Part shown: positions 4,974 to 63,560 of the stretch, in pieces
How the letters are laid out: every line of letters begins with the position of its first letter
How positions within the stretch are numbered: position 1 is the first letter of the stretch
Assembly (NCBI RefSeq): GCF_000739995.1
Contig: NZ_BBJX01000012.1
Coordinates: 1-64,000, forward strand
Direction: 5' to 3'
Length of the DNA: 64,000 nt
Origin: Comamonas granuli NBRC 101663
GTDB lineage: Bacteria; Pseudomonadota; Gammaproteobacteria; Burkholderiales; Burkholderiaceae_C
Notes under the pieces: model-generated
The model's input: the letters and a program-made list of their open reading frames with translations, nothing else
What the model was told of the DNA's origin: nothing
The model's database searches: none
Position numbers and translations under genes: made by a program

Positions 4974-6194
4974 ATGCCCATGTCCCGCTTCGTCGGCTCG
5001 GACCACCAGATCCTGCTGCTGCAGGGCGCGCAGGAGCTGTTCCCGGCCATGGTGGCCGAGATGGATGGGGCGCTGTCCGACATCCAGCTCGAAACCTACA
5101 TCTTCAACTGCGCGGGCGCCGGGGCCACGGTGGCCGAGGCGCTAATCCGCGCCGCCGCGCGCGGGGTGCGCGTGCACCTGGTCGTCGATGGGGTGGGCAC
5201 GGGGCGCCTGCCCCAGCCCTGGGCCGACCGCCTGGCGCAGGCCGGCGTGCGCGTGCAGGTGTACTCGCCGCTGGGGCCGCTGGGCCTGCTGCTGCCGCGG
5301 CGCTGGCGGCGCCTGCACCGCAAGCTGTGCGTGGTCGATGGGCGGGTGCTGTTCTGCGGCGGCATCAATGTGCTGGACGACTTCCACGACCCGAACCACG
5401 GCACGCTGCCCGCCCCGCGCCTGGACTTTGCCGTGCGCGTCGAGGGCACGCTGGTGCGCTACGCCAGCGACGTGATGGAGCAGTTGTGGTGGCGCATGCG
5501 CGCGCTGCGCGACGTGCAGCGCCGGCGCCTGTCGCTGGCGCTGGCCGACCTGCGTGCGGCAAGCGCCGCGCAGGCCGGCCTGCGCCGCACGGAGCAGGCC
5601 GGGCCGGGCATGCGCGCCTCCTTCATGCTGCGCGACAACCTGCGCCACCGCGGGCGCATCGAGCGCGCCTACCGCCGCGCCATCGCCCGCGCGCGCCACG
5701 AGATCATCATCGCCAACGCCTACTTCGTCCCTGGGCGCAAGCTGCGGCGCGCGCTGGTGCTGGCGGCGCGGCGCGGAGTGCGCGTGCAACTGCTGCTGCA
5801 GGGGCGCTACGAGTACTTCATGCAGTACCACGCCGCGCGGCCGGTGTACGGCGTGCTGCTGGCAGCCGGCGTCGAGATCTACGAGTACGCGCCCAGCTTT
5901 CTGCACGCCAAGGTGGCCGTCATCGACGCGCTGGGCGAGCAGCCCTGGGCCACGGTCGGCTCGTCCAACCTCGACCCCCTGAGCCTGCTGCTGGCGCGCG
6001 AGGCCAATGTGATGGTGCGCGATGCCCAGTTCGCGCGCGAGCTGCGTGCGCGCCTGGTGCAGGCCATGGCCAGCGGCGCCGGCATGCTCGACGCGCAGGA
6101 ATATGCCCAGCGCCCCTGGCGCGAGCGCGTGCTCGACCGCGTGGCCTTCGGCCTGATGCGCGCCTTGCTCTGGCTGACCGGCAATCGCTACTGA
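4974..6194 (+). CDS. clsB: Cardiolipin synthase B
   Basis: A 406-residue phospholipase D superfamily enzyme with two HKD motifs: HRKLCVVDGRVLFCGGIN (about residues 115-132) and HAKVAVIDALG with GSSNLDP (about residues 308-336). It lacks N-terminal transmembrane helices, as ClsB does and ClsA does not. Family members make cardiolipin or phosphatidylglycerol by transphosphatidylation at the inner membrane. It follows the YbhP-like gene, the same pairing as in E. coli ybhP-clsB. Its last codons (Arg-Tyr-stop) lie inside the first hairpin arm of a dispersed repeat (6187-6245), so the repeat supplies the stop codon. Confidence 0.92.
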   Translation: MPMSRFVGSDHQILLLQGAQELFPAMVAEMDGALSDIQLETYIFNCAGAGATVAEALIRAAARGVRVHLVVDGVGTGRLPQPWADRLAQAGVRVQVYSPLGPLGLLLPRRWRRLHRKLCVVDGRVLFCGGINVLDDFHDPNHGTLPAPRLDFAVRVEGTLVRYASDVMEQLWWRMRALRDVQRRRLSLALADLRAASAAQAGLRRTEQAGPGMRASFMLRDNLRHRGRIERAYRRAIARARHEIIIANAYFVPGRKLRRALVLAARRGVRVQLLLQGRYEYFMQYHAARPVYGVLLAAGVEIYEYAPSFLHAKVAVIDALGEQPWATVGSSNLDPLSLLLAREANVMVRDAQFARELRARLVQAMASGAGMLDAQEYAQRPWRERVLDRVAFGLMRALLWLTGNRY

Positions 6195-6245
6195 ATTGAT
6201 AGCTGCTTGCGCTTTCTGGATGGGCGCTGGAGCCAAAAAACACAC
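6187..6245 (+). repeat. Dispersed double-hairpin repeat, copy 1
   Basis: First of about 14 copies of a ~60-bp repeat in this window. Shared plan: a GCTAT-N6-ATAGC hairpin, then TGCTNGCGCTT, a short variable loop, an AGCGCTGGAGCC half that can fold back on GCGCTT, and an A-rich end (CAAAAA). Here the first arm is GCTACTGAATTGATAGC and contains the clsB stop codon. Plus orientation. Confidence 0.85.
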
Positions 6246-6283
6246 GCAAAACCGGCTTTCGCAATCGCTGGTACCATGCCAGC

Positions 6284-7006
6284 ATGTTCTCTTCCACCCC
6301 CGCCCCATCGGACGCCCAGGCCCAGGCCGAAGGCGTGCCCGTCTCCGTGAAAATCCGCGAGCGGCTCAAGGCGGCGCGCAAGCGCTTCAACGCCAACGAC
6401 AACATCGCCGACTTCATCCGGCCCGGTGAGCTGGAAATGCTGCTCGACGAGGTCGAGGCGAAGATGCAGGGCGTGCTCGACAGCCTGGTGATCGACACCG
6501 TGGGCGACCACAACACCCAGAACACCGCGCGCCGTGTGGCCAAGATGTATGTCAACGAGGTGTTCAAGGGCCGCTACGCCGAGCCGCCCACCATCACCGA
6601 GTTTCCCAACGCCGAGCACCTCAACGAGCTGATGATCGTCGGCCCGCTGACGGTGCGCAGCGCCTGCAGCCACCATTTCTGCCCCGTCATCGGCAAGATC
6701 TGGATCGGCATCATGCCCAACGAGCACACCAACGTGATCGGCCTGTCCAAGTACGCGCGCCTGGTGGACTGGATCATGGGCCGCCCGCAGATTCAGGAAG
6801 AGGCCGTGGTGCAGCTCGCTGACCTGATCATGGAGAAGACCCAGCCCGACGGCCTGGCCGTGGTCATGGAGGCCAGCCACTTCTGCATGTCCTGGCGCGG
6901 CGTGCGCGAGATGGACAGCAAGATGATCAACTCCGTGATGCGCGGCGTGTTCCTCAAGGACAGCGCGCTGCGCCGCGAATTCCTCTCCCTCATCCCCGGA
7001 AAGTGA
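6284..7006 (+). CDS. folE: GTP cyclohydrolase I (variant active-site loop)
   Basis: A 240-residue GTP cyclohydrolase I, which opens GTP to 7,8-dihydroneopterin triphosphate, the first folate step. Conserved blocks are visible: DTVGDHNTQNTARRVAKM, the zinc loop with C128 and H130/H131 (SACSHHFCP), NVIGLSKYARL, RPQIQEE and the second Cys in SHFCMSWRGVRE. The usual Glu before the two His (CEHH) is Ser here (CSHH), so this belongs to a divergent branch of the family. A ~45-residue N-terminal extension precedes the core. The BLUF gene starts 7 nt downstream and is likely co-transcribed. nudB, the next folate step, is 2.1 kb upstream. Confidence 0.88.
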   Translation: MFSSTPAPSDAQAQAEGVPVSVKIRERLKAARKRFNANDNIADFIRPGELEMLLDEVEAKMQGVLDSLVIDTVGDHNTQNTARRVAKMYVNEVFKGRYAEPPTITEFPNAEHLNELMIVGPLTVRSACSHHFCPVIGKIWIGIMPNEHTNVIGLSKYARLVDWIMGRPQIQEEAVVQLADLIMEKTQPDGLAVVMEASHFCMSWRGVREMDSKMINSVMRGVFLKDSALRREFLSLIPGK

Positions 7007-7013
7007 GCCGACC

Positions 7014-7436
7014 ATGCTGGTACGCCTGCTCTATGCCAGCCGCGCGGTGGACACCTCGCCCGCGGCCATCGAAGCCATTCTCACCCAGTCGCGCCAGCAC
7101 AACCCGGCCTGCGGCATCACCGGCGTGCTGTGCTACGGCGGCGGCATCTTCCTGCAGGCCATCGAGGGCGGGCGCAGTGCCGTCAGCGAGCTCTACGGCC
7201 ACATCCAGCGCGACCCGCGCCACAAGGACGTGGAGCTGCTGCACTTCGAGGAGATCACCGAGCGGCGCTTCGGCGGCTGGACCATGGGCCAGGTCAACCT
7301 CAGCAAGATCAACCACTCCATCCTGCTCAAATACTCCGAGAAGCCCGAGCTCGACCCCTACGCCGTCTCCGGCCGCGTGTCGTTCGCGCTGCTCGAAGAG
7401 CTCATGGCCACGGCCTGCATCATCGGCCGCGCCTGA
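7014..7436 (+). CDS. BLUF-domain blue-light photoreceptor
   Basis: A 140-residue stand-alone BLUF protein, a flavin-binding blue-light sensor. All hallmark residues can be placed: Tyr7 (LLYASRA), Asn30 (HNPACGITG), Gln48 (FLQAIEG), and the Trp89/Met91 pair (GGWTMG). The hydrogen-bonding network used in photoactivation therefore looks intact. The ~45-residue C-terminus is helical and carries no enzymatic output domain, so it must act by protein contact, as other short BLUF proteins do. It starts 7 nt after folE and is followed 8 nt later by a small secreted protein gene. The partner is unknown. Confidence 0.92.
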   Translation: MLVRLLYASRAVDTSPAAIEAILTQSRQHNPACGITGVLCYGGGIFLQAIEGGRSAVSELYGHIQRDPRHKDVELLHFEEITERRFGGWTMGQVNLSKINHSILLKYSEKPELDPYAVSGRVSFALLEELMATACIIGRA

Positions 7437-7444
7437 GGGGGCCC

Positions 7445-7684: not shown

Positions 7685-7763
7685 GCGCGGGCACTCCGTC
7701 GGGTACCATGCCGGCTTGCGGCCGGCTCCGCGGCCGGCTGCCTTCACCGTTCGGACCCCCTGT

Positions 7764-8408: not shown

Positions 8409-8423
8409 CCCGCTCTCTTTTCA

Positions 8424-8465
8424 GGAGCTGTCTGCGCATGCTCCCATGGGCCTGGAGCCATTTTT
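8424..8465 (+). repeat. Degenerate dispersed repeat copy (copy 2)
   Basis: Contains AGCTGTCTGCGC and GGGCCTGGAGCC spaced as in the intact repeats, but the first hairpin arm is lost. Probably an eroded copy, in plus orientation. Confidence 0.45.
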
Positions 8466-8483
8466 GGTACTGAACGGCGCAGC

Positions 8484-8875: not shown

Positions 8876-8929
8876 AAATCGGGCTCCAGCGCCCTGTGGC
8901 AAAGCGCTGGCAGCTATTGAATCAATAGC
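8876..8929 (-). repeat. Dispersed double-hairpin repeat, copy 3
   Basis: Minus orientation. Its palindrome GCTATTGAATCAATAGC (8913-8929) is the cleanest in the window and begins 2 bp after the pth stop codon. It sits between the convergent ferredoxin and pth genes. Confidence 0.9.
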
Positions 8930-24000: not shown

Positions 24001-25710
24001 CTATTCCTGCGCCCCCTCGATCACGAACTGCACCTTGCGCTCGCCGCGCCATTCGTTGACGTCCAGGCGCCAGGCGAGCAGGGCGCGCGCGGGCAGGGGC
24101 TCGGTGCGGCCGAACCAGATGCCGTCCACGGGCGCGCCCTGGTGGCGCAGCTTGAGCGAGAGGTGGCGCTCGCCCACCAGGCGCTGGCCCAGCACCTCCA
24201 CCTCCTCGCTGAACAGGGGCGGCGCAAAGCCCTGGCCCCAGACTTCGCGCTGCAGCGTGTCGGCCAGGTCGGCGCGGCGCCATTCGGGGGCCAGGGGGCC
24301 GTCGGTCTCCAGGCGGCGTGTGAGGGTGGCGGCGTCCAGCCATTCGCGGGCGACCTGGGCCAGGGCCTGCTCGAACTCGGCAAAGCGCTCGGCGGGCACG
24401 GTGCAGCCCGCGGCCATGGCGTGGCCGCCAAAGCGCAGCAGCACGCCGGGGTGGCGCTTGGCCACCAGGTCCAGCGCGTCGCGCAGGTGAAAGCCGGGAA
24501 TGGAGCGGCCCGAGCCCTTGAGCTCATGCGCCTTGCCCGGCGCGCCGCTGGCGGCAAAGACGAAGGTGGGGCGGTGCAGCTTGTCCTTGATGCGCGAGGC
24601 GACGATGCCCACCACGCCTTCGTGGAAGTCGGGGTCGAACACGCTGACGGCGGGCGGGGGCTCGTCCTGCGCGCCAAACCGGTCTTCGGCCAGCAGCAGG
24701 GCCTGTTCGCGCATGCCGCCCTCGATCTCGCGGCGTTCGCGGTTGATGGCGTCGAGCTGCTGCGCCAGGTGCTCGGCGCGCGCGGCGTCGTCGGTGAGCA
24801 GGCATTCGATGCCCAGCGTCATGTCGGCCAGGCGCCCGGCGGCGTTGATGCGCGGACCCAGCGCAAAGCCGAAGTCGAAAGTGGTGGCCAGGGGCGGCTG
24901 GCGCCCGGCTACGCGCAGCAGGGCGGCAATGCCCGGCGGCATCTGCCCGGCGCGGATGCGCTTCAAGCCCTGAGCCACCAGGCGGCGGTTGTTGGCGTCC
25001 AGACGCACCACGTCGGCCACCGTGCCCAGGGCGACCAGGGGCAGCAGGGGCTCCAGGCGCGGCTGCTGGGCGGCATCGAACACGCCGCGCTGGCGCAGTT
25101 CGGCGCGCAGTTGCATGAGCACGTAGAACATCACGCCCACCCCGGCCAGGGACTTGCTCGCAAAGTGGCAGCCCGGCTGGTTGGGGTTGACGATGGCCTG
25201 GGCCGGCGGCAGCTCGGCGCCGGGCAGGTGGTGGTCGGTGATGAGCACGGCCAGGCCCAGAGCGCGAGCCTGGGCCACGCCCTCCACGCTGGCGATGCCG
25301 TTGTCCACGGTGATGAGCAGGTCGGCGCCGCGCTCGTGCACGCGCCGGGCGATGGGCGGGGTGAGGCCGTAGCCATCGACCACGCGGTCGGGCACCAGGT
25401 AGTCCACATGGCGTGCGCCCAGCAGGCGCAGGCCGCGCACGGCCACGGCGCAGGCGGTGGCGCCGTCGCAGTCGTAGTCGGCCACGATGCACAGGCGCTG
25501 GTCGCGCGCGATGGCGTCGGCCAGCAGGCGCGCGGCCTCTTGCACGCCCTGCAGTCCGCCGGGCGGCAGCAGCTGGGCCAGGCTGTCATCCAGCTCGCCC
25601 GGCGCCTGCACGCCGCGCGCGGCATACAGGCGCGCCAGCAGCGGGTGCAGGCCCGCCTGCTCCAGCGCCCAGACGGCGCGCGGGGGGATGTCTCTCGCTA
25701 TTATTTTCAT
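24001..25710 (-). CDS. recJ: Single-stranded-DNA-specific exonuclease RecJ
   Basis: A 569-residue DHH-family 5'-3' exonuclease used in recombination and repair. The metal-binding motifs are present: VADYDCDGATA, the D in LLITVDNGI, TDHHLPGAELPPA, and LKGSGRSIPGFHLRDAL. Length matches RecJ (about 575). Its ATG overlaps the upstream gene's TGA (ATGA). The ATG sits inside the first hairpin of a dispersed repeat (25697-25752), so the repeat covers its first codons (MKIIAR). Confidence 0.96.
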   Translation of the reverse strand: MKIIARDIPPRAVWALEQAGLHPLLARLYAARGVQAPGELDDSLAQLLPPGGLQGVQEAARLLADAIARDQRLCIVADYDCDGATACAVAVRGLRLLGARHVDYLVPDRVVDGYGLTPPIARRVHERGADLLITVDNGIASVEGVAQARALGLAVLITDHHLPGAELPPAQAIVNPNQPGCHFASKSLAGVGVMFYVLMQLRAELRQRGVFDAAQQPRLEPLLPLVALGTVADVVRLDANNRRLVAQGLKRIRAGQMPPGIAALLRVAGRQPPLATTFDFGFALGPRINAAGRLADMTLGIECLLTDDAARAEHLAQQLDAINRERREIEGGMREQALLLAEDRFGAQDEPPPAVSVFDPDFHEGVVGIVASRIKDKLHRPTFVFAASGAPGKAHELKGSGRSIPGFHLRDALDLVAKRHPGVLLRFGGHAMAAGCTVPAERFAEFEQALAQVAREWLDAATLTRRLETDGPLAPEWRRADLADTLQREVWGQGFAPPLFSEEVEVLGQRLVGERHLSLKLRHQGAPVDGIWFGRTEPLPARALLAWRLDVNEWRGERKVQFVIEGAQE

Positions 25711-25752
25711 AGCTGCTCGCGCACGTCTGCAAAGCGCTGGGGCCGCAAAAAG
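25697..25752 (+). repeat. Dispersed repeat, copy 4, spanning the recJ start
   Basis: GCTATTATTTTCATAGC then TGCTCGCGC and AAGCGCTGGGGCC, plus orientation. The copy is entirely coding. On the minus strand it encodes the C-terminus of the COG4255-like gene and the first residues of recJ, and holds their ATGA overlap. Confidence 0.85.
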
Positions 25753-26663
25753 CTTTGAAGCTTCTGCCCCAGGCTGCGCGGTGCCGTGTGCCAGGTGAGC
25801 GCGCCGCGCTCGCCGCACAGGGTGAGCCGCACGGCCTGGCCCTGCGTGGCCTGGGCGTGCAGCCGGGCCAGGGGGCCGGCGTCCAGCGCCTGCCAGGCGG
25901 CGGCCCAGGCGGGCCAGTCCTCGCGCAGCGCGGCGTCCTGCAGGGTGGTATCGACCTGGGGCGCTGCGCCGGTGGCGGGGGGCGGTGCGTCCAGACGGCC
26001 CGCGCCGTGCACCCAGAAGGCGTTGACGGGCGGCAGGCCCTGGGCCTCGCGCGCGTCGTTCAGGGGGTGGGTGTAGAGCAGCATCTGCATCTCGCTGTGC
26101 AGGCGGCGCAGCGGGTGGGCCTTGTGCTCGCCGGGCAGCCAGTGCGAGACGTCGCGGTGCAGCACGCGCTCGACCGACGCCGTGGCCAGGCCGGCCAGCA
26201 CCTCGCCTTGGGCCAGCCAGCGCGTGGGGCGGTCGTAGTGCAGGGTGATGCCGTCCTGTGCAAACCAGGGCGCCAGCACTTCCAGCAGCGCGCGCGCGGC
26301 GGCTTCGTCCAACTGCAGCGCGGCCGGGTCGGCCAGGGTCACGTGGTCGGTGCGCACCTGCCAGTGGCAGGGCGTGATCCAGGCCCAGGCGCTGTGCAGG
26401 GCGTCTGGCGTGCGGCCGCGCAAGTAGACCTCCCAGGCGGCCCAGGGGGTGCGACCGTCGTCCTCGGGCAGACCCAGGGCGCGCGCCAGCACGCGCTCGT
26501 GCGGGGCGCTCAGCGCGTCTTCGGGGGTCTGGGTGTTGTCTTGCAGGCTCAGGCGCTGGAGCAGGGCGTCCAGGTGCGGCAGGCGCAGGGCCTGCAGGGC
26601 CTGGCGGCAGGCGTCGCCGGGGTGGGCGGCGCTGGGGAGGATGAGGTGCGGGGTGTCCGGCAT
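25707..26663 (-). CDS. COG4255/RpfE-like protein encoded upstream of recJ
   Basis: A 318-residue protein of a family found next to recJ in many betaproteobacteria and xanthomonads. I recall it being annotated variously as RpfE-type regulatory protein or cofactor-independent phosphoglycerate mutase-like. Its own sequence shows no catalytic motif I can name. Conserved-looking stretches are TPCHWQVRTDHVTL, LHRDVSHWLP, LHSEMQMLLYTHPLN and VNAFWVHGAGRL. It overlaps recJ by 4 nt and is probably co-transcribed. About the last 17 residues are encoded by a dispersed repeat. It is divergent from lolC across 36 bp. Enzymatic annotation should be treated as unproven. Confidence 0.7.
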   Translation of the reverse strand: MPDTPHLILPSAAHPGDACRQALQALRLPHLDALLQRLSLQDNTQTPEDALSAPHERVLARALGLPEDDGRTPWAAWEVYLRGRTPDALHSAWAWITPCHWQVRTDHVTLADPAALQLDEAAARALLEVLAPWFAQDGITLHYDRPTRWLAQGEVLAGLATASVERVLHRDVSHWLPGEHKAHPLRRLHSEMQMLLYTHPLNDAREAQGLPPVNAFWVHGAGRLDAPPPATGAAPQVDTTLQDAALREDWPAWAAAWQALDAGPLARLHAQATQGQAVRLTLCGERGALTWHTAPRSLGQKLQSFLRPQRFADVREQL

Positions 26664-26699: not shown

Positions 26700-27948
26700 A
26701 TGCAGATCCCCTACGAACTGGCCCTGGGCTGGCGCTACACGCGCGCGGGCCGCGCCACGCGGCGCAATGGCTTCATCTCGTTCATCTCGGGCGTGTCCAT
26801 GCTGGGCATTGCGCTCGGGGTGGCGGCGCTCATCATCGTGCTGTCGGTGATGAACGGCTTCCAGAAAGAGGTGCGCGACCGCATGCTCAGCGTGGTCTCG
26901 CACATCGAAATCTTCGCCCCCGGCGGCGCGGCCCTGCCCGACGTGGCGCGCACCCTGCAGGAGGCGCGTGCCAACCCGGCCGTGGTGGCTGCCGCGCCCT
27001 TTGTGGCGGCGCAGGCGCTCTTGGCGCGCGGCGAGGACATGAAGGGCGCGCTGGTGCGCGGCATCGACCCGGCGCGCGAGCCCGAGGTCACCGATCTGCT
27101 GGCAGGCGCCCAGGGCGACACGCTGGCCCAGCTCGTGCCCGGCGCATTCCGCGTGGTGCTGGGCGGTGAGCTGGCGCGCATGCTGGGCGTGCGCGCGGGC
27201 GACGTGGTGACGCTGATCGCGCCCACCGGCCAGGTCACGCCGGCGGGTGTGGTGCCGCGCCTCAAGCAGATGCAGGTGGCCGGCACCTTCGACTCGGGCC
27301 ACTATGAATACGACTCCACGCTGGTGCTGCTGCACCACGAGGACGCCGAGCGCATCTTCCGCCTCGAAGGCCCCACGGGCATTCGCCTGAAGCTGCGCGA
27401 CCTGCACCAGGCGCACGCCGTGGCGCAGGAGCTGGCCCACTCGCTGAGCGGCGACCTGCGCATCCGCGACTGGACGCAGCAGAACCGCACCTGGTTCGCC
27501 GCCGTGCAGCTCGAAAAACGCATGATGTTCATCATCCTCACGCTCATCGTGGCCGTGGCGGCGTTCAACCTCGTCTCCACGCTGGTGATGACGGTGCAGG
27601 ACAAGCGCGCCGACATCGCCATCCTGCGCACCCTGGGCGCGAGCCCGCGCAGCATCATGGGCGTGTTCGTGGTGCAGGGGGCGATGGTGGGCGTCATCGG
27701 CACGCTGGCCGGGCTGGTGCTGGGCCTTTCCATCGCCTTCAACATCGACGTGATCGTGCCCGCCATCGAGCGCCTGCTGAGCGCCAGCTTCCTGCCCAAG
27801 GACATCTACCTCATCAGCCGCATGCCCAGCGACCCGCAGAGCGCCGACATCGTGCCCGTGGGCGTGATCTCGCTGGTGCTGGCCTTCGTGGCCACGCTGT
27901 ACCCGAGCTGGCGCGCCAGCCGCGTCAACCCTGCGGAGGCCTTGCGCT

Positions 27949-27956
<8 letters not shown>
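26700..27956 (+). CDS. lolC: Lipoprotein-releasing ABC transporter permease LolC/E
   Basis: A 418-residue permease of the LolCDE complex, which extracts lipoproteins from the inner membrane for transfer to LolA. The N-terminus [11 protein letters not shown] and the first membrane helix are conserved. A ~230-residue periplasmic domain follows, then three C-terminal helices with the family's [20 protein letters not shown] motif. Only one permease gene accompanies lolD, so the complex is likely a homodimeric LolCDE variant. The last codons and stop (RYE*) fall in a dispersed repeat that also carries the lolD start. Confidence 0.93.
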
Positions 27957-28698
<742 letters not shown>

Positions 28699-30400: not shown

Positions 30401-30455
30401 CAAAATGGGCTTATACGCTTTAGAATCAAGCGCCAGCAGCTATTGTTTTGATAGT
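30401..30455 (-). repeat. Dispersed double-hairpin repeat, copy 6
   Basis: Minus orientation. CAAAATGGGCTTATACGCTT at the A-rich/loop side, AAGCGCCAGCAGC, then GCTATTGTTTTGATAG. It lies 5 nt after the TatD stop and covers the region where the next gene might start. Confidence 0.85.
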
Positions 30456-35739: not shown

Positions 35740-38259
35740 ATGGAACACCCCACGGGCACACCGGGCGCGGCCGCGCCGGCCGCTTGCGCGCCAGCGGCTG
35801 CGCCGCGTGCCTGGCTGGGCGGCTGGTGGTGTGCCGGCGCCCTGCTGGGTGCTGCGCTGCAGGTGCAGCAGCCGCGCCTGTGGAGCGGCGCCGCCTACGC
35901 GGCGCTGGGCCTGCTGGCGCTGCTGGCCGGGTGGCATGCCTGGCGGCGCGGGCGCCGGGGCCGGGCCGTCTGGCCCGCGGGGGTGGCCCTGGCGGCGGCG
36001 CTGCTGGTGTTCTCGGCCACGGGGCTGCGCGCCCTGCAGCGCCAGGCCCAGGTGCTGGACCCGGCGCTGGAGGGGCGCGACCTGCGCATCGTCGCCACCG
36101 TGGCCGCCATGCCCCAGCCGCTGGAGGCTGGTGTGCGCCTGCGCGTGGCGGTCGAGTCGGCCTTGCTGGCGGGCCAGCCGGTGCGCCTGCCCGAGCACAT
36201 CGACCTGGGCTGGTACGACGGCCCGGCGGCGCCGGAAGCCGCGGACGCGCCGTACAGCCGCTACGCGGGCCTGCCGCGGGCGGGCGAGCGTTGGGCGCTG
36301 ATGGTGCGCCTGAAGGCGCCGCACGGCGCGCGCAACCCGCAGGGCTTTGACTACGAGCTGTGGCTGTGGGAGCAGGGCGTGGGCGCCACCGGCACGGTGC
36401 GCGCGCGCGCGCCCGGCGACGCGCCCCAGCGCCTGGCGCAGACGGCCTGGCACCCCGTGGAGCGCCTGCGCCAGCGGGTGCGCGATGCCGTCTTCGACAC
36501 CCTGGCGCCGGACGCGGGCGACGCGCAGCGCCAGCGCCTGGCGGGCGTGGTCGCCGCGCTGGTGACGGGCGACCAGCGCGCCATCGAGCGCGCCGACTGG
36601 GATGTGTTCCGCACCACCGGGGTGTCGCACCTCATGAGCATCTCGGGCCTGCACATCACCATGTTCGCCTGGCTGGCCTCGGCCTGCGTGGGCCGCCTGT
36701 GGCGGCGCTCGGCGCGCCTGTGCCTGGCCTGGCCCGCGCCCTCGGTGGCCTTGGCGGGCGGTGTGCTGCTGGCCGCGGGCTATGCGCTGTTCAGCGGCTG
36801 GGGCGTGCCCGCGCAGCGCACGGTGACCATGCTCGCCACCGTCGTGCTGCTGCGCCTCACAGGGCGGCGCTGGCCCTGGCCGCAGGTCTGGCTGCTGGCG
36901 GGCGCGGTGGCGGTGCTGGCCGACCCCTGGGCCCTGTTGCAGCCCGGGTTCTGGCTCAGCTTCGTCGCCGTGGCGGCCTTGTTTGCTAGCAGTTTGGTAG
37001 CTGGTGGCGCAGCATCCACGGGCGTTGGTGGCTTTTTAAAGGCCTTGCTGCGCGAGCAGGGCGTGGTCACGCTGGCGCTCACCCCGCTGGGCGTGCTGTT
37101 CTTCGGGCAGCTCTCGCTCGTGGGCCTGGCGGCCAATCTGCTGGCCATCCCCTGGGTCACGCTGGTGCTCACGCCGCTGGCCCTGGGCGGGGTGCTGTGG
37201 GCGCCCCTGTGGCACGCGGCGCTGGCGGCGGCGCAGGTGCTGGTCGCGGTGCTGCAGTGGCTGGCCGCCTGGCCCTGGGCCTCGCTGTGGCTGCCGGTGG
37301 CCCCCTGGGGCGTGGGGGTGGCGGCCGTGCTCGGCGGCCTGTGGCTGGTGCTGCGCCTGCCCTGGGCCTGGCGCGGGCTGGGCCTGCCGCTGGTGCTGCC
37401 CGTGCTGCTGTGGCAGTACCCGCGCCCGGCGCCCGGGCAGTTCGAGCTGCTGGCGGCCGACGTGGGGCAGGGCTCGGCCGTGTGGGTGCGCACGGCCACG
37501 CACGCCCTGCTGTTCGACGCCGGCCCGCGCTACGGCCTGCAGGCCGACGCGGGGGCGCGCGTGCTCGTGCCGCTGCTGCGCGCGCATGGCGAGCGGCTGG
37601 ACCTGCTCATGCTCAGCCACCGCGACAGCGACCACACCGGCGGCGCAGCCGCCGTGCTCGCGCAGCAGCCGCAGGCGCGGCTCGTGGGCTCCATCGCGGG
37701 CGATGCGGCGCTGCAGGCGCTGCGCCCCCATGCGCCCTGCGCGGCCGGCCAGGCCTGGGAGTGGGACGGCGTGCGCTTTGCCGTGCTGCACCCGCCGTCC
37801 GGCGCGGCGCCGGGGCAGGGCGGGCAGAGCAATGCGCACAGTTGCGTGCTGCGCGTGCAGGCGCCCTCGGGCGCGGCGGCGCTGCTCACGGGCGACATCG
37901 AGGCGGCGCAGGAGGCGCAGCTCCTGGCCCAGGCCGCGCCCCTGCAGGCCGATGTGCTGCTGCTGCCGCACCATGGCAGCAGGAGCTCGTCCAGCCCGGC
38001 CTTCCTCGACGCCGTGCAGCCGCGCACCGCCCTGGTGCAGGCGGGCTACCGCAACCGCTACGGCCACCCCGCGCCGCAGGTGCGTGAACGCCTGCAGGTG
38101 CGTGGCGTGCAGGTGGTGGAGACGGCCCGCTGCGGCGCGGCGCGGTGGAGCTCCGCACCTGGCGCAGGGCTGCGCTGCGAGCGCCAGGAGCGCGTGCGCT
38201 ACTGGCAGCATGCGGGCTCTTATGCCCCCGACGCCGGCCCGTCAGAAGGCGAAGAATAG
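35740..38259 (+). CDS. comEC: DNA uptake channel ComEC/Rec2
   Basis: An 839-residue ComEC, the inner-membrane channel for single-stranded DNA uptake in natural transformation. The N-terminal DUF4131 region is followed by the competence domain with many membrane helices (HLMSISGLHITMFAWLAS, then GWGVPAQRTVTM). A C-terminal metallo-beta-lactamase-like domain follows, with LSHRDSDHTGG and LPHHGSRSSSS. The frame is open throughout. At about residues 416-434, a dispersed repeat lies inside the coding region and encodes a stretch around SSLVAGGAAS, in a loop after FASS. No other competence genes are in the window. Confidence 0.9.
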   Translation: MEHPTGTPGAAAPAACAPAAAPRAWLGGWWCAGALLGAALQVQQPRLWSGAAYAALGLLALLAGWHAWRRGRRGRAVWPAGVALAAALLVFSATGLRALQRQAQVLDPALEGRDLRIVATVAAMPQPLEAGVRLRVAVESALLAGQPVRLPEHIDLGWYDGPAAPEAADAPYSRYAGLPRAGERWALMVRLKAPHGARNPQGFDYELWLWEQGVGATGTVRARAPGDAPQRLAQTAWHPVERLRQRVRDAVFDTLAPDAGDAQRQRLAGVVAALVTGDQRAIERADWDVFRTTGVSHLMSISGLHITMFAWLASACVGRLWRRSARLCLAWPAPSVALAGGVLLAAGYALFSGWGVPAQRTVTMLATVVLLRLTGRRWPWPQVWLLAGAVAVLADPWALLQPGFWLSFVAVAALFASSLVAGGAASTGVGGFLKALLREQGVVTLALTPLGVLFFGQLSLVGLAANLLAIPWVTLVLTPLALGGVLWAPLWHAALAAAQVLVAVLQWLAAWPWASLWLPVAPWGVGVAAVLGGLWLVLRLPWAWRGLGLPLVLPVLLWQYPRPAPGQFELLAADVGQGSAVWVRTATHALLFDAGPRYGLQADAGARVLVPLLRAHGERLDLLMLSHRDSDHTGGAAAVLAQQPQARLVGSIAGDAALQALRPHAPCAAGQAWEWDGVRFAVLHPPSGAAPGQGGQSNAHSCVLRVQAPSGAAALLTGDIEAAQEAQLLAQAAPLQADVLLLPHHGSRSSSSPAFLDAVQPRTALVQAGYRNRYGHPAPQVRERLQVRGVQVVETARCGAARWSSAPGAGLRCERQERVRYWQHAGSYAPDAGPSEGEE
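36985..37041 (+). repeat. Dispersed repeat, copy 7, inside comEC
   Basis: GCTAGCAGTTTGGTAGC, TGGTGGCGC, GGGCGTTGG and a CTTTTTAAA end, plus orientation. More diverged than intergenic copies but with the same spacing. It is the only copy wholly inside a gene's middle, and keeps the frame. Confidence 0.6.
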
Positions 38260-40616: not shown

Positions 40617-40676
40617 TTTCAAGCCAAATCGGGCTCTGGCGCTTGTGGAGTAAGCGCGCGAAGCTATCAAAATGAA
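40617..40676 (-). repeat. Dispersed double-hairpin repeat, copy 8
   Basis: Minus orientation. AAATCGGGCTCTGGCGCTT, AAGCGCGCGAAGCTATC and an imperfect palindrome (GCTATCAAAATGAAAGC). It starts 2 bp after the ahpF stop. Confidence 0.8.
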
Positions 40677-40677
40677 A

Positions 40678-40707
40678 GCGGCGGTGCTGTCCCCACAGCC
40701 CCGCCGC
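40678..40707 (+). terminator. Terminator after ahpF
   Basis: Stem GCGGCGG/CCGCCGC extended by GCTGT/ACAGC with one mismatch and loop CCCC, followed by TTGCGTTTT. It overlaps the end of the neighbouring repeat. Confidence 0.7.
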
Positions 40708-41022: not shown

Positions 41023-42537
41023 TTAGTCTTGGTCTTCTGTGCTGCTAAGCGACTGGCCCTGCATACGCTGGGCTACCGCTGCCTCAATAGCATCGAGCAC
41101 ATGCTCCTGCACGCGATCCGCAAAGCGCTTGCGCCGGTTGTTCGATAGTTTGCCGCCGTTCTGGTGGCTGGTGACGATCAGCGTGGCCAAGTCGGTGCTG
41201 CGCAGGTCGTAGCGGTCGTTGATGTAACGGGCGACGTCGTCAAACAGCCCCAGAAAACCCACCTCCTGCCGGAGGTGGGTCTCCAATGACGCCTGGGCCA
41301 TGGCCAGTATGAAGGCCACGCCCTCGGTCACATCCATGTAGCGAAACCACACATCCTCGCCGCTCTGCCATGCATAGCTGTACTGGTCATCGCCCGACCA
41401 CAGCACCTGGCACAGCTCCCGGGCGGGCCTGCTGAAAGCCGTCAGCGCCTGCCAGTATTGCTCTTCGTGTTTTTTCATGGCCACCGACACGGGCAGCAAA
41501 AAGCCCGCAGGCAGACCACCCGACTGCCCCAGGCAGTGGTGAATCAGAAAGCGCGACAGGCGCCCGTTGCCATCCATGAACGGGTGCAGAAAGACAAAGG
41601 CGAACGACACCACGCCGGCATGCACCAGTGGGTCCAGCCCCGCGGGGCGCTGGTTCGACAGCGCCATCAGTTGCTCCATCAGCTCGGCGCACAGCTCGGG
41701 CGGGGGCGGCACATAGGTCACACCCGCCGCGCCCAGGGCATTGCCCTGCAGGCGGTTTTGCTCGGTGCGGAACTGCATCGCCTTGTCGAACGGGTTGCTG
41801 ACGGTGGCGTTCTGCAACTCGATCAGATAGTCCTCGGTCAAGGGGCGTGGGTCGTGCGCCCGCTTGAGCAGCGCGGCAAACCGGCTGGCCTTGTCCTCGC
41901 TGGGCGTCTCGCCCTCGATGGCGAACGAGCCCTCGGTCTCGCTCAGATACGCCCAGGACAGGGCGCGCTCCAGCATCTGCGGGCCGATGGAGGCCGCGAA
42001 CGCCTTGGCATGGGCCAGCACATCGTGCTGCAAGCCCTGCAGCACCGCATCGGTCTTGCGCACCACCGGGCAAAAGGCCAGGTCGCCCAGCCCGTTGAAA
42101 TCCACGCGCCAGCGCGCATTGCGCCGCGAGGCGCCGGTCAAGTAGGCCGCCGGGTCGAACATGGGCACATAGGCAGCCGCCACGGGGTGCTGCTCCACCG
42201 CCTGCAGCGGGCACTGGTGGGCGGCCTCCCACAGCAGGCACAGCTTGCGCACATAGGCGCCGTTGGGCGTGCGCAGAAATTCGGCCTCCATCTCTTCCTG
42301 GCCGACCTGGCGCAGCGCCGCCGTCAGATAGTCCAGCCGCACCCCTTCGTGCTTGATGGCAAACAGGGCATGGTCCAGCCAGCGCGCGCCGGGCGCCAGC
42401 TTGGCAGGTACCAGCAGCGCCCCCTCGGGCAGCCGCTGCAGGCTTTGCACAGCCGCCAGCCGCGCCTTGTGGGCGCCCAGAAAGTCCGGGGCCTGGAGCG
42501 CGTCCTGAATCCAGGCGTAGCCAACAGCGGTGCTCAT
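41023..42537 (-). CDS. Fic-family AMP transferase, class II
   Basis: A 504-residue Fic protein with the active-site motif HPFMDGNGR at residues 318-326, matching HPFx(D/E)GN(G/K)R, so adenylyl transfer is expected. An inhibitory helix motif (S/T)xxxEG is found as SFAIEG at residues 204-209, before the Fic core, which places it in class II (autoinhibited from the N-terminal side). It has a Fic_N-like N-terminal domain, and about 60 residues at the C-terminus (LATLIVTSHQNGGKL...RKRFADRV) look like a winged-helix tail. The frame is open and all motifs are intact. Fic genes are often found within type I restriction loci, and here the adjacent hsdR is in ruins. Target unknown. Confidence 0.88.
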   Translation of the reverse strand: MSTAVGYAWIQDALQAPDFLGAHKARLAAVQSLQRLPEGALLVPAKLAPGARWLDHALFAIKHEGVRLDYLTAALRQVGQEEMEAEFLRTPNGAYVRKLCLLWEAAHQCPLQAVEQHPVAAAYVPMFDPAAYLTGASRRNARWRVDFNGLGDLAFCPVVRKTDAVLQGLQHDVLAHAKAFAASIGPQMLERALSWAYLSETEGSFAIEGETPSEDKASRFAALLKRAHDPRPLTEDYLIELQNATVSNPFDKAMQFRTEQNRLQGNALGAAGVTYVPPPPELCAELMEQLMALSNQRPAGLDPLVHAGVVSFAFVFLHPFMDGNGRLSRFLIHHCLGQSGGLPAGFLLPVSVAMKKHEEQYWQALTAFSRPARELCQVLWSGDDQYSYAWQSGEDVWFRYMDVTEGVAFILAMAQASLETHLRQEVGFLGLFDDVARYINDRYDLRSTDLATLIVTSHQNGGKLSNNRRKRFADRVQEHVLDAIEAAVAQRMQGQSLSSTEDQD

Positions 42538-43086
42538 GTCAGTGGGGTGGTGAGGGGCGGGAAAAAGTTCAGTGTGCGGGAATTTTCTTCAAAAATGAAG
42601 AGACACTCGATGTTTTTCTCAGTCGGAGGGCGTGTGGACTGCACATTCAAGCCCCCGGAGGGCAGAAAAATCTTCTGGCAATGGGGATTTTTCTCAGAAC
42701 TTGGCCATCCGCACGCCTTTTTTTAGCAAGGCTGCAAAAGGTGCCGCTTGCTGACTTGAGGCGCCACGGGGTAAGCAACATGTAAACAGTCCGCCCTGAA
42801 CAATTCCGTTTTCAGCCGCAGGCAGGTCGGTGCTCATGCGCAGGGGGGAACAATACTGCGATCAGGAATTCGAGGGGGCCACAACACGCCCACAGATGCG
42901 CAGAAGGCATGCCCTGGTGGGTGGTCGTGGGCGGCATCGGTGAGCGCTGGTCCGCAGTCCCCAGAGGCCACATCGATGGGCAGAGGGTCGCCAGTTTGCT
43001 ATCAAACAAGTAGCTTTTAGCACTTGCTATATGCGCCTTTGTGCCATATTTCATTCAAAAACGCCCTGGCCTGGTGCGCGCCACCC
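42538..43086. other. Gene-free 550-bp stretch beside the Fic gene
   Basis: No convincing gene on either strand. It contains AT-richer pockets (around 42560-42620 and 42690-42800) unlike the flanking genes and one dispersed repeat copy (42998-43064). An 80-codon minus-strand reading frame (42812-43054) runs through the repeat and looks like chance. Likely the scar of the lost hsdM/hsdS side of the restriction locus, though I cannot read any such protein fragment in it. Confidence 0.5.
42998..43064 (+). repeat. Dispersed repeat, copy 9
   Basis: GCTATCAAACAAGTAGC, TTTTAGCACTTGCTATATGC, and TTTCATTCAAAAACGCC at the end. Plus orientation; the second hairpin is more diverged than usual. Confidence 0.75.
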
Positions 43087-49324: not shown

Positions 49325-49384
49325 GCTATCAAAAAAAATAGCTTCCAGCACTGATGAACAGGGCGCTGGAAGCGAAAAACTCTG
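49325..49384 (+). repeat. Dispersed repeat, copy 10
   Basis: GCTATCAAAAAAAATAGC, TTCCAGCACTG, GGGCGCTGGAAGC and GAAAAACTC. Plus orientation, between the FKBP start and the HxlR-type gene. Confidence 0.85.
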
Positions 49385-51081: not shown

Positions 51082-51147
51082 GCTACGAATGCGATAGCTG
51101 GTAGCGCTTTCTGGATGAGCGCTGCAGGCCGAAAATGCCGAACATTC
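51082..51147 (+). repeat. Dispersed repeat, copy 11
   Basis: GCTACGAATGCGATAGC, TGGTAGCGCTTTCTGG, AGCGCTGCAGGCC and a GAAAATGCC end. Plus orientation, starting 13 nt after the CoA-transferase stop. Confidence 0.9.
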
Positions 51148-51155
51148 CATGAAAA

Positions 51156-51187
51156 AGGCGCCTGTCTCCTTGCGGGGACAGGCGCCT
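51156..51187 (-). terminator. rpoD terminator
   Basis: An 11-bp perfect stem AGGCGCCTGTC/GACAGGCGCCT with a 10-nt loop. On the minus strand the AAAAA at 51152-51156 gives a T-run. It begins 13 nt after the rpoD stop and may also act on transcripts from the CoA-transferase. Confidence 0.85.
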
Positions 51188-51200
51188 GGGGCGGGGCTTC

Positions 51201-53561
<2,361 letters not shown>

Positions 53562-57511: not shown

Positions 57512-57579
57512 GCTATTGAATCAGTAGCTGCTGGCGCTTTTTGGATAAGCGCTGCAGCCCGATTTCATCCAAAAACGCC
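57512..57579 (+). repeat. Dispersed repeat, copy 12
   Basis: GCTATTGAATCAGTAGC, TGCTGGCGCTTTTTGGATAA, AGCGCTGCAGCCCG and TTTCATCCAAAAACGCC. Plus orientation. This is one of the best-preserved copies. Its end overlaps the stop codon of the convergent NSS transporter (57565-57567). Confidence 0.95.
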
Positions 57580-58962
57580 GAGCCCGCCCAGCATCACCAG
57601 CAGGATGAGCGGCGGCGTGACCCAGCGCAGCAGCCAGGCGATGGGGCCGGCCAGGCGGGCATGGGAGGGCGGGCCCTCCCCGCGCAGGGCCGCGCGCAGG
57701 GCCTGCGCGCCCCAGGCCCAGCCCACGAACAGCGCGATGCCGATGCCGCCCGCGGGCAGCAGCAGGTTGGACGAGAGGAAGTCCGCCCAGTCGAACAGCG
57801 AGCGCCCGCCGGGTTTGAAATGCGCCAGCGTGCTCTGGCTGAGCGCGCAGCCCGCGCCCGGCACCACGAGGGCGAGCAGCGTGAGCAGCGTGGCCCGCGC
57901 GCGCGACAGGCCCCAGCGCTCGTGCAGCGTGGCCACCGGCACCTCCATGAGCGAGAGCATGGCGCCCGTGGCGGCGATGGCCGTGAGCACGAAGAACGCC
58001 GCCATCAGCACCTGGCCCGCCGGCATCTGCGCGAACACCGCCGGGATGGTGATGAACACCAGCGAAGGCCCGGCCGATGGCGCAAAGCCGAAGCTGAACA
58101 CCGCCGGGAAAATGGCCATGCCCGCCAGCAGCGACACGCACAGGTCGGCCGCCATGACGCGCGCGGCCGTGGCCGGGATGTTCTGCTGCGCGCCGAAATA
58201 GCTGCCGTAGGTCAGCATGGTGCCCATGCCGATGGACAGCTTGAAGAACGCCAGCCCCATGGCCGTGAGCACCACGGGCGCGCTGATCTTGTGCCACTCG
58301 GGCAGGAACAGAAAGGCCAGCGCCTGCGCCGCGCCGGGCAGCGTCAGGCTGTAGGCGCACAGCAGCAGCAGGAGCAGGAACAGCAGCGGCATGAGCTTCT
58401 TGGTCAGCGCCTCGATGCCTTTGGCCACGCCCAGGAGCAGGATGGCGCCGATGAAGCCCAGCACGCCCCATTGCCACAGCAGCGCGGACACGGGGTCGCC
58501 GATCAGCGCCTCGAAGGCCGCCTGCGTCACCGCCGGGTCGCTGCTGAGCAGTTGCCCGCCCAGCGCCTTGGCCACGTAGGCGAACACCCAGGCCACCACC
58601 TCGGAGTAGAACGACAGGATCAGAAAGGCCGCCAGCATGCCCGCCACGCCCAGCAGCCACCAGGGCTGGCCCGCGGGTGCGAGCTGGCGCAGCGCCGTGA
58701 TGGGGTTGGCGCGCGCCTGGCGGCCGATGCTGATCTCGGCCACCATCAGCGGCAGGCCGATGAGCAGCGTGGCCAGCAGGTACACGAGCAGAAAGCCCGC
58801 GCCGCCGTTGGCGCCGGTGAGTGAGGGGAACTTCCAGATATTGCCCAGGCCCACGGCGGAGCCCAGGGTGGCGGCGAGCACGCCGAAACCGGAGGTGAAA
58901 CTGCCGCGCGCGGTAGCGGCGACGGGGGCGTGCGAACGCCCGGCAGAGCGGGGTGTGCTCAT
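57565..58962 (-). CDS. Sodium-dependent transporter of the NSS/SNF family
   Basis: A 465-residue transporter with about 11-12 hydrophobic helices. The N-terminal family motif GSAVGLGNIWKFPSLTGANGG and the sodium-site region near it are intact. The family (LeuT-like) co-transports amino acids or related amines with Na+. The bacterial form here is short, as typical for SNF proteins. The substrate is unknown. Its last codons (GVFG*) come from the end of repeat copy 12, and its start codon lies at the edge of copy 13, so the gene is framed by two repeats. Confidence 0.9.
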   Translation of the reverse strand: MSTPRSAGRSHAPVAATARGSFTSGFGVLAATLGSAVGLGNIWKFPSLTGANGGAGFLLVYLLATLLIGLPLMVAEISIGRQARANPITALRQLAPAGQPWWLLGVAGMLAAFLILSFYSEVVAWVFAYVAKALGGQLLSSDPAVTQAAFEALIGDPVSALLWQWGVLGFIGAILLLGVAKGIEALTKKLMPLLFLLLLLLCAYSLTLPGAAQALAFLFLPEWHKISAPVVLTAMGLAFFKLSIGMGTMLTYGSYFGAQQNIPATAARVMAADLCVSLLAGMAIFPAVFSFGFAPSAGPSLVFITIPAVFAQMPAGQVLMAAFFVLTAIAATGAMLSLMEVPVATLHERWGLSRARATLLTLLALVVPGAGCALSQSTLAHFKPGGRSLFDWADFLSSNLLLPAGGIGIALFVGWAWGAQALRAALRGEGPPSHARLAGPIAWLLRWVTPPLILLVMLGGLGVFG

Positions 58963-59018
58963 GATTTGATAGCTGCTTGCGCAGGTCGGTAGTGCGCGAA
59001 CGGCCTATTTTGCCCCAA
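58961..59018 (+). repeat. Dispersed repeat, copy 13
   Basis: First arm partly eroded (GATTTGATAGC), then TGCTTGCGCAGGTCGG, TGCGCGAACGGCC and TTTTGCCCC. Plus orientation. It begins at the NSS transporter start codon and ends 17 bp before the phoD stop. Confidence 0.7.
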
Positions 59019-60574: not shown

Positions 60575-60664
60575 CGGAGTGCAGGGCGTGAGTGCAAACG
60601 CCATTGTGGGCCCAGGGGCGGCGTGCGATCATGGCTCCCGTCGGCAGAACAGGATGGAGGCGCG

Positions 60665-61819: not shown

Positions 61820-63493
61820 ATGCGCTGGAACATAGGACAACGGCTGGGCCTGCTGCTTGCCAGCTTCAGCGTGCTGGCGGCGCTGGTGCTGGGCTACCTC
61901 ACCTACACGGCGGCGCGCGACATGCTTGAGCAGCGCGCCCAGCGCACCCTGCAGCGCACGGCGCGCGTGCTGGCAGCCCAGTTGCAGTCGGGCTTTGACA
62001 GCGTGGGGCGCGATGCGACCGTGCTGGCGCACCTGGCCGCCAGCCCCACGGTGCAGCAGGCGGCAGCGCACCGGCAGGTGCTGGCCGATGCCTTCCAGTC
62101 CCTGCTGCTGGCGCGGCCGGCCTACCTGCAGGTGCGCTTCGTCGGCATGCAGGACCATGGCCTGGAGCTGGTGCGCGTGCACCGGCAGGCCGATGGCCGC
62201 GTTGCGCGCACGCCCGATGCGCAATTGCAGGAGAAGGCGCACTTCCCCTTCGTCTTCGAGACCCGGCGCCTGGCGCCGGGGCAGGTGTATCTGGGCGACT
62301 TCGGCACCAGCCTGGACGAGGCCCAGGGCCTGCCGGGGGAGGCGGTGTTCAGCGTCGCCGCCCCCGTGGTGGCCGGCACGGACGTGGTGGGCGTGGTCGA
62401 GGTGCGCGTGGATGCCTCGGTCTTTCTCGCGCGCGTGAGCGCGGGCCTGCCCGAACCCTATGGTTTCTACCTGGCCAACCGCTGGGGCGACTACCTGGTG
62501 CACCCCGAGCGCAGCAAGGCCTTCGGCTTCGAGCGCGGCGAGCGCGTGCTGGTGCAGGAGGAGTTTCCCTCCACCGCCGCCCTGCTCGACGGCGCTGCGG
62601 CGGAGCAGGGTTTTGCCCAGCCCGACGCGCAGGGCATGGACGAGGCCTACGCCTTCCTGCGCGTGCCCCAGGGCGTGCCCGAGAGCGGGCGCTTCCTGGT
62701 GATGGGCCTGTCCGAGCCCATGGCGGCCGTGCAGGCCGATGTGCAGCAACTGGGGCGCAGCATGCTGCAGATGCTGGCCGTGGTGGCGCTGGCGGCGCTG
62801 CTGCTGGCGGCCGGGGTGTCGCGCGTGGTCACCGGGCCGCTGCGCTCCGTGATGCGCGCCGCCGAGGCCTTCTCGCAGGGCCGCTCGCATGGGGATTTGC
62901 CGGTGGCGCGCCAGGACGAGCTGGGCGAGCTGGCGCGCAGCTTTGCCGACATGGAGGAGCAGATCCGCCGCCAGATGCACGAGCTCAACCGCAGCCGCGA
63001 TGCCATGGCGCACCTGGCCCACCACGATCCGCTCACCGGCCTGCCCAACCGCCGCATGTTCGAGCAGCGCCTGCAGGAGGCGCTCGAGCGCGCGCAGCGC
63101 AGCGGGCGCTCCTGCATGGTGGTGTTCGTCGACCTCGACGATTTCAAGGCCGTGAACGACAAGCTCGGCCACGCCGTGGGCGACGCCGTGCTGCAGGCGG
63201 CGGCGCGCACCATCCGCGGCGCCGTGCGCCAGGTGGACACGGTGGCGCGCCTGGCGGGCGACGAGTTCACCGTGCTGTGCGAGAACGTGGACACCGAGGC
63301 GGACGCGCAGCGCGTGCTGGCCAAGCTGCGCCGCGCCTTCGAGGAGCCGCTGCCCATCGATGGCCGGCCCCTGGCCGTGCGCGCCAGCATGGGCGTGAGC
63401 CGCTACCCGCAGGACGCGCAGGACGCGCACACCCTGCTGGCCAGCGCCGACGCGGCCATGTACCGCAGCAAGAAGCAGCGCGGCGGCGAGTGA
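61820..63493 (+). CDS. Membrane diguanylate cyclase with Cache-like sensor
   Basis: A 557-residue signal-transduction protein. Helix 1 (about residues 7-29), a ~280-residue periplasmic sensor of the Cache type, helix 2 (about 314-336), a HAMP linker, and a C-terminal GGDEF domain (about 395-557). The active-site signature is AGDEF at 479-483 (Ala for the first Gly is accepted in active enzymes). The inhibitory site RxxD is present five residues upstream (RQVD, 470-473). No EAL domain follows, so it should only make cyclic-di-GMP. It is directly fused in transcription to the PotD-like binding-protein gene, which suggests that the binding protein delivers the signal to its sensor. Confidence 0.9.
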   Translation: MRWNIGQRLGLLLASFSVLAALVLGYLTYTAARDMLEQRAQRTLQRTARVLAAQLQSGFDSVGRDATVLAHLAASPTVQQAAAHRQVLADAFQSLLLARPAYLQVRFVGMQDHGLELVRVHRQADGRVARTPDAQLQEKAHFPFVFETRRLAPGQVYLGDFGTSLDEAQGLPGEAVFSVAAPVVAGTDVVGVVEVRVDASVFLARVSAGLPEPYGFYLANRWGDYLVHPERSKAFGFERGERVLVQEEFPSTAALLDGAAAEQGFAQPDAQGMDEAYAFLRVPQGVPESGRFLVMGLSEPMAAVQADVQQLGRSMLQMLAVVALAALLLAAGVSRVVTGPLRSVMRAAEAFSQGRSHGDLPVARQDELGELARSFADMEEQIRRQMHELNRSRDAMAHLAHHDPLTGLPNRRMFEQRLQEALERAQRSGRSCMVVFVDLDDFKAVNDKLGHAVGDAVLQAAARTIRGAVRQVDTVARLAGDEFTVLCENVDTEADAQRVLAKLRRAFEEPLPIDGRPLAVRASMGVSRYPQDAQDAHTLLASADAAMYRSKKQRGGE

Positions 63494-63503
63494 GGGTGCG
63501 GGT

Positions 63504-63560
63504 GCTATTTTTTCAATAGCTGCCTGCGCTTGCCGGCAGGGCGCTGGGGGCGTTTTTTAG
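63504..63560 (+). repeat. Dispersed repeat, copy 14
   Basis: GCTATTTTTTCAATAGC, TGCCTGCGCTTGCCGG, GGGCGCTGGGGGC and GTTTTTTAG. Plus orientation, 10 nt after the diguanylate cyclase stop. Its end touches the ggt stop codon (63557-63559). Confidence 0.9.

Follow-up and report, generated by a model that had tools for sequence, protein, structure and literature searches.

A REP-like palindromic repeat near gene 3' ends in Comamonas granuli and its putative Y1 transposase partner

A family of short palindromic repeats was found in 64,000 nucleotides of Comamonas granuli NBRC 101663 (contig NZ_BBJX01000012.1; this whole stretch is called the window below). On balance, we favour the reading that the repeat is a REP-like (repetitive extragenic palindromic) non-autonomous element of about 64 bp, cognate to a single-copy Y1 (HUH) transposase of the RAYT/TIRYT type (REP-associated and terminal inverted repeat-associated tyrosine transposases) and now mostly immobile. 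Its placement mostly just past stop codons, its sites often shared between species and its resemblance to the end of the transposase gene suggest an old and tamed mobile element. The label "REP-like" is used because canonical features of RAYT-REP systems are missing, namely two inverted flanking copies, inverted pairs and a short unit.

Two models were used: a covariance model built from 13 window copies (R1), and a position-specific scoring matrix (PSSM) of 67 columns built from 65 copies of the source genome (G000; other G labels denote sampled genomes, and L labels loci or stretches). An earlier note on this DNA had listed about 14 repeats sharing one plan. All 14 are real: 13 align without gaps over 54 nt, the eroded fourteenth (8412-8465) is recovered by R1 (26 bits, E 9e-5), and the PSSM run over the window returns exactly these copies. 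Two coordinates given at that time have been corrected (58961 to 58957 and 8424 to 8412-8465), and the copies at 8876, 30401 and 40617 belong to the minus strand. In 400 kb of the source genome, 77 positions, mostly training copies, have a PSSM score of at least 10, against none in the reversed sequence. Counted by locus, 464 kb that include the window contain 87 copies, and the reversed null is again 0. The genome scan with R1, which is independent of this training, gives at least 150 matches, about 140 of them outside the window. This number is a floor, because every one of the 150 first-look candidates scored with R1 passed. A crude capture-recapture estimate for this genome is about 270 copies, biased low because the sampled stretches had been positioned around copies already listed; 14 lie within the 64 kb of the window. 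Four of 88 R1 matches were removed as overlapping a better match. An Rfam-type scan of the window yielded two tRNAs only, the repeat matching no described RNA family, and a lax RNA-family scan of 301 bases around one copy gave a single sub-threshold match. No description of the repeat family in Comamonadaceae was found in searches of an open PMC library.

The anatomy was derived from 79 copies. The GC content is about 50%, and information begins near position -1 and ends near position 64, so that the unit is somewhat longer than the 60 bp or so first assumed. Positions 1-17 hold an AT-rich hairpin, GCTAT-N7-ATAGC, whose 5' arm varies; the foot TAGCT (14-18) is almost invariant, and its partners in stem 1 drift. 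Immediately before the near-invariant TAG (14-16), 55 of the 79 copies have A and 23 have G. The core of the GC-rich hairpin 2 is formed by GCGCTT (23-28) and AAGCGC (36-41) and can be extended to 16-48. The unit ends with an ATTT tract (51-54) and then a looser AAA (61-63). The proposed plan of a GCTAT/ATAGC hairpin followed by a GCGCTT fold-back is thus retained, with a first loop of 7 nt rather than 6, and the "A-rich end" of the earlier note is usually ATTT with AAA some nucleotides later. A single pair of copies closer than 100 nt was seen in 464 kb of the source genome (L040, 13811 and 13896), in direct orientation; this tandem, with copies 85 nt apart, occupies L040:13811-13949. No inverted pairs or clusters, as in bacterial interspersed mosaic elements (BIMEs) or REP doublets forming hairpins (REPINs), were seen among the copies in these 464 kb.

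The earlier note had also suggested a test for a REP-associated transposase (TnpA-REP type), and a candidate exists: one Y1 gene of the source genome is above the PF01797 (Y1_Tnp) cut-off, and a related copy of the repeat lies at its 3' end. The best NCBIfam match of the transposase is NF047646, REP_Tyr_transpos (79.4 and 77.1 bits, with a cut-off of 80). In 14 of 42 distinct loci the PSSM finds a diverged element at the 3' end of the transposase gene, lying at the stop codon and antisense to the gene, with scores from 10 to 46, against a best score of -9 in 2000 null windows; G132 provides a fifteenth locus. In an alignment of six transposase ends with four window copies the whole unit is visible. 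The element sits just inside the native motif GGGGAC, and in all six aligned ends its left arm is replaced by the native motif GGGACANATYAAA. With one mismatch allowed, GGGACAYATYAAA occurs once in the source genome, at the transposase end.

This 3'-end motif goes with the abundance of the repeat more specifically than the presence of a Y1 gene does. All 17 genomes with at least 10 R1 copies have a Y1 gene, as do 62 of 91 genomes without detected copies (IS200 types included, and assuming that both scans drew the same genomes). The loose motif GGGAC-N8..18-RNAGC was found at the transposase end in 12 of these 17 genomes, in 4 of 6 examined genomes with 1-9 copies, and in 1 of 16 examined genomes with none; the latter two samples, 6 of 12 and 16 of 91 genomes, were picked by Y1 score and not randomly. 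It is present in 14 of 15 congeners examined. Since the motif is loose, the matches in G007 (the sole copy-free one) and G010 look doubtful. Loci L164 and L172 were dropped from the count as duplicates, and L165 and L173 as having no frame. PF01797 missed the transposase in G122, G095 and G046, where a protein search found all three; the same kind of search did not find it in G040. An inverted-repeat search at four transposase loci gave nothing clear. In the repeat-rich G015:C1, Y1_Tnp gives 20 matches; several are IS200-like and almost the same in sequence, and there is also one RAYT-like gene.

The copies are biased to the 3' ends of genes, as proposed earlier. Among the 87 PSSM copies of the source genome, 65 are intergenic, 20 lie in called genes and 2 at edges; the 84 R1 copies comprise 19 sense and 25 antisense ones in tandem pairs, 19 in convergent and none in divergent regions, together with 19 inside called genes and 2 at edges. 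None of the 65 intergenic copies falls into a divergent region. In seven genomes (PSSM counts in stretches chosen around known copies), 147 intergenic copies include 41 sense-tandem, 58 antisense-tandem, 44 convergent and 4 divergent ones, yet divergent regions make up about 23% of intergenic bases. The median distances to the stop codon in tandem pairs are 7 and 5 nt, and some copies, such as the one at 6187, supply the stop codon itself. Per region, convergent regions of the source genome hold about twice as many copies as tandem ones (19 in 52 regions and 44 in 245, respectively). In a sample of congeners, 103 of 419 genes have the element within 200 nt of the stop codon. The common orientation of repeat and gene, noticed earlier for five window copies, is not general, as seen from the sense and antisense counts in tandem pairs.

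An intrinsic terminator was considered as a candidate function and rejected. The dependence of the T-tract on orientation is the wrong way round, TTT at 52-54 being rarer in sense (22/41) than in antisense (46/58) copies, and the exclusion between the repeat and canonical terminators vanished after matching for space: other terminators are scarcer near elements (2/81 against 25/165), but this is explained by the available space (1.2/81 expected after matching). A directional terminator is thus unlikely, since there is neither orientation bias nor a T-tract on the sense side. Of the four copies between 50000 and 64000, one falls on a terminator-like site (63533).

Many copies are old and have been inherited at the same site and in the same orientation between species. 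Around a dnaG-like gene, many congeners have the element at the same sites. Between G123 and G134, 14 orthologous element pairs were matched; 12 of them have the same orientation, and these are 77% identical compared with 56% in non-orthologous pairs. In the per-position table, from which one doubtful pair of the 12 was left out, RTAGCT and GCGCTT are 0.97 identical, compared with 0.71 at fourfold sites of 60 genes. Ungapped identity of other parts in the same 11 pairs is 0.89 for AAGCGC, 0.66-0.79 for the loops, 0.57 for the upstream flank and 0.41 for the downstream flank. In ordered, non-independent comparisons among 14 genomes, an element at one ortholog is matched at the other by one in the same orientation in 238 of 399 cases and by one in the opposite orientation in 68, with none there in 93; absence from one ortholog goes with absence from the other in 823 of 916. 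Comparison of elements needs both copies to be detectable. Copies share their sites and a common consensus, and selection would seem to hold the core of individual copies.

With R1 at E <= 1e-6, the repeat family was found in 29 of 120 genomes of the bacterial family (one per genus), 17 of which have at least 10 matches. A scan of the order at E <= 1e-7 with stricter filters gave 3 of 250 genomes, the source genome included, all within the same family. Matches among named loci are few (5/80: Simplicispira hankyongi, Polaromonas glacialis, and metagenome-assembled genomes of Polaromonas, Comamonas and Burkholderiaceae), and only 2 of 72,556 plasmid records match, with one copy each, from Diaphorobacter and Acidovorax. 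The consensus is similar in six other genomes, although their copies were found with the PSSM trained on the source genome. The repeat family is thus common to many genera of one betaproteobacterial family, while transposase-tied REP families are best known from gammaproteobacteria.

GTAG REPs with RAYT/TnpA-REP transposases (PMC2817692, PMC3733652) resemble the present repeat in high copy number, palindromic structure, preferential placement in unidirectional or convergent regions and a link to a Y1 HUH protein. Some of their copies likewise lie inside open reading frames (ORFs), and they can supply stop codons (PMC3733652). However, GTAG REPs are 20-40 bp long, against about 64 bp here (the foot with hairpin 2 alone would span about 36), the head is mostly ATAG here, and their inverted pairs were not seen here. 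According to PMC2817692, RAYT homologs that satisfied its criteria were found only in gammaproteobacteria, with Thauera as a case of horizontal transfer. TIRYTs and their TIRtrons, probably TnpA-REP subclass 2.1, are described in PMC3733652 and PMC6006769 as Y1 transposases with end motifs of the GGGGWSAS type, and the present loci contain TIRYT-like end motifs, GGGGTCAG and GGGGACA. The present transposase may belong to subclass 2.1. Some TIRYTs have moderately abundant repeat families of terminal inverted repeats (TIRs), the largest being in Stenotrophomonas maltophilia (PMC3733652), and the survey in PMC6006769 recorded no REP-like sequences near subclass 2.1 genes. In contrast, the 3' end of the present gene is matched by a dispersed repeat with at least 150 copies, and the TIR motif itself is single-copy in the source genome. 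The present family thus suggests a partner for a transposase type whose surroundings lacked REP-like sequences in that survey (PMC6006769), although smaller TIR families of such genes are on record (PMC3733652). Beta-proteobacterial repeat elements (BRE) of Bordetella and several Comamonadaceae are likewise dispersed, short, mostly intergenic and sometimes within ORFs, but they are about 90 bp long, 69% GC in Bordetella, present in up to 29 copies and often in tandem (PMC3110155). Identity of the repeat with the BRE of Comamonadaceae is unlikely.

The mechanism that we propose is as follows. The transposase or its ancestor would have recognised the RTAGCT foot and hairpin 2 as single-stranded DNA and spread the copies, of which those just past stop codons would mainly have survived. 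Spread would now be slow, and many copies would be inherited at the same site and orientation. We infer that the copies were moved by the transposase, and that selection acts on a role at 3' ends, in DNA or mRNA, that does not depend on orientation. Many copies keep their sites between species, so that the question of parasite or host asset becomes testable site by site.

Several observations weigh against this reading. R1 showed no enrichment of repeats around transposase genes. Canonical RAYTs are flanked by inverted REPs on both sides, whereas here the element lies on the 3' side of the gene; the 5' side has no clear copy except in G010 (76), with a weak match in G134 (8). Even the loose motif is absent from five of the 17 high-copy genomes. 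Most of the transposase ends represent a single orthologous site, and the repeat-free genera partly cluster on a poorly resolved tree, hence the genera are not independent, and the Fisher value for the motif treats them as more independent than they are. The head is ATAG in most copies of the repeat. No clean empty site was seen. Finally, in the 14 genomes the core is about as similar between random cross-species pairs as between orthologs (0.93 against 0.95 at positions 13-18, and 0.88 against 0.82 at 23-26), and since orthologs are no more alike, site-specific selection is not cleanly separable from a shared consensus combined with detection bias. What stands of the earlier REP/BIME-type interpretation is the 3'-end bias and the transposase link; the absence of inverted pairs, the one-sided flank and the long unit do not fit it.

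The earlier note had mentioned a small structured RNA, with compensatory changes in both stems as a check; a structured RNA with two conserved stems was rejected. No covariation was seen in 13 copies, and little in 88 (pair counts). Hairpin 1 shows none, and exchanging halves between copies gives nothing there either. For hairpin 2, the mean folding energy is lower than that of column-permuted copies (z -5.9), but this value is not used as evidence because half-swaps between copies of similar score removed the signal in the source genome (z -1.1). In 35 congener copies scoring at least 55, some of them orthologous, half-swaps gave z -2.4 with 0 of 100 swaps as stable; with all 50 congener copies, 6 of 100 were as stable. 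The lower stem of hairpin 2 has a weak pairing signal (pair 20-44, 9/1000 shuffles), its core shows no covariation after score matching, and in a general mutual-information scan the top pairs carried no stem signal. A 42-row congener alignment looked better for covariation, but its rows are related sequences. Stability z-values of five single copies (-0.04, -2.5, -1.9, -1.4, -1.1) are not striking. Compensatory change is thus absent from hairpin 1 and at most weak in hairpin 2 once decay is matched, so that the refuting outcome named in the earlier note, stems without covarying changes, holds in part for the RNA reading. Conservation lies in the sequence itself (TAGCT, and GCGC on either side), not in pairing.

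One alternative, possible if doubtful, is that an unrelated repeat similar to miniature inverted-repeat transposable elements landed once behind the transposase gene in an ancestor, as it did behind many other genes. Given how many congener genes end within 200 nt of an element, one old insertion there would be unsurprising, and the copy-free 5' sides and the lack of enrichment by R1 agree with it. However, the native motif stands in for the left arm, with no intact element lying alongside, and the arrangement goes with the presence of the repeat family. Rather unlikely, in our view, is an mRNA 3'-end element whose GC hairpin, in transcripts, either terminates transcription intrinsically or blocks 3' exonucleases, selection for this keeping it after stop codons. 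It would account for the position after stop codons and near-absence from divergent regions, the core identity at orthologous sites of G123 and G134, the congener hairpin 2 being more stable than score-matched half-swaps, and the coincidence at 63533. On the other hand, the tandem pairs have no orientation bias, the TTT is rarer in sense copies, terminator scarcity is explained by space, neither hairpin 1 nor the core of hairpin 2 covaries, and a plain barrier needs no near-invariant TAGCT.

Gyrase and IHF bind BIMEs, and the repeat could similarly be a DNA site bound downstream of genes by a host protein (gyrase, a nucleoid protein or a domesticated transposase), for instance in the relief of supercoils. 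The orientation-neutral distribution, the roughly twofold excess in convergent regions and conservation of sequence rather than pairing are consistent with this; this putative role is the least probable of these explanations. The favoured reading of a transposase-cognate element also has an extension, which we hold to be improbable: a domesticated, TIRYT-like HUH transposase and its cognate hairpins, genome-wide behind genes across many Comamonadaceae, could now form a host system whose targets at the 3' ends of genes would be single-stranded DNA, supercoils or transcripts, hence the retention of sites between species.

Some copies lie inside genes. In the source genome, 8 of 11 same-strand copies are in codon phase 0, the frame that avoids the TAG of TAGCT, and the six copies that lie well within genes on the opposite strand all have phase 2. 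Five of these 17 are at domain borders (pyruvate dehydrogenase E2, lipoyl-Lpd, a biotin carboxylase fusion, asparaginase and a thioredoxin-TPR protein); others, e.g. in comEC and the exonuclease VII large subunit, are within domains. G123 and G134 have a copy in the gene corresponding to the comEC-like one, as judged by neighbour order and flanking sequence. Compared with solved homologs, there are about 12 extra residues at the element in DapF, 6 in FabD, about 11 in the carboxylase and none in PurK. Against orthologs from the family, DapF is longer by no more than a few residues, and the neighbouring WPL motif is native. An in-frame antisense copy occurs at the same place in 9 of 30 DapF loci (L260-L289; e.g. 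L047:8090-8143) and is shifted in a tenth; loci without a copy have a native WPL-like motif there. Weak in-gene matches may be chance events. Rickettsia palindromic elements also have some copies in frame within proteins; the present copies lie mostly behind genes.

Window coordinates refer to the 54-nt core, the unit continuing for about 10 nt further. Genes were called with a home-made caller and checked by Pfam on 19 window proteins, one of which had no match. The five stop-codon adjacencies reported earlier were confirmed by gene calls and Pfam, with starts at -8, +2, +13, +2 and +10 nt (PLD/clsB-like, Pth, CoA-transferase III, AMP-binding and GGDEF). The plus-strand copy 6187..6240 provides the clsB-like PLD gene with its TGA stop. 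The eroded copy 8412..8465 (plus) begins 3 nt past the stop of a LysE-type gene, and 8876..8929 (minus) is between convergent genes, 2 nt past the pth stop. The copy 25697..25750 (plus) overlaps both the 3' end of the called minus-strand ORF 25707-26663, which has no Pfam match, and the recJ-like gene 24001-25710 at its called start. The copy 27946..27999 (plus) overlaps the stop of a gene ending at 27956, with an ABC-transporter ATPase gene next; 30402..30455 (minus) is 6 nt past a TatD-type gene and antisense to it; and 36985..37038 (plus) is in frame inside the comEC-like gene, within the Competence domain.

The copy 40626..40679 (minus) lies 10 nt past a pyridine nucleotide-disulphide oxidoreductase gene, antisense to it and convergent with a Fic gene; 42998..43051 (plus) is 35 nt past the stop of a Kinase-PPPase gene, in antisense. 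Long intergenic gaps beside the Fic/DOC-family gene (41023-42537) hold these two copies. The copy 49326..49379 (plus) is between two minus-strand genes, and the eight congeners aligned there have it at the same site and orientation. Further plus-strand copies are 57512..57565, which fills the gap between convergent acyl-CoA synthetase and SNF-type transporter genes, 58957..59010, 25 nt past a PhoD-type gene and antisense to it, and 63504..63557, between convergent GGDEF and gamma-glutamyltranspeptidase genes. The copy 51082..51135 (plus) is 13 nt past the CoA-transferase stop and convergent with the gene 51201-53561, which we take to be rpoD-like; this gene has its own terminator-looking hairpin (about 51150-51190) directly beside the repeat copy.

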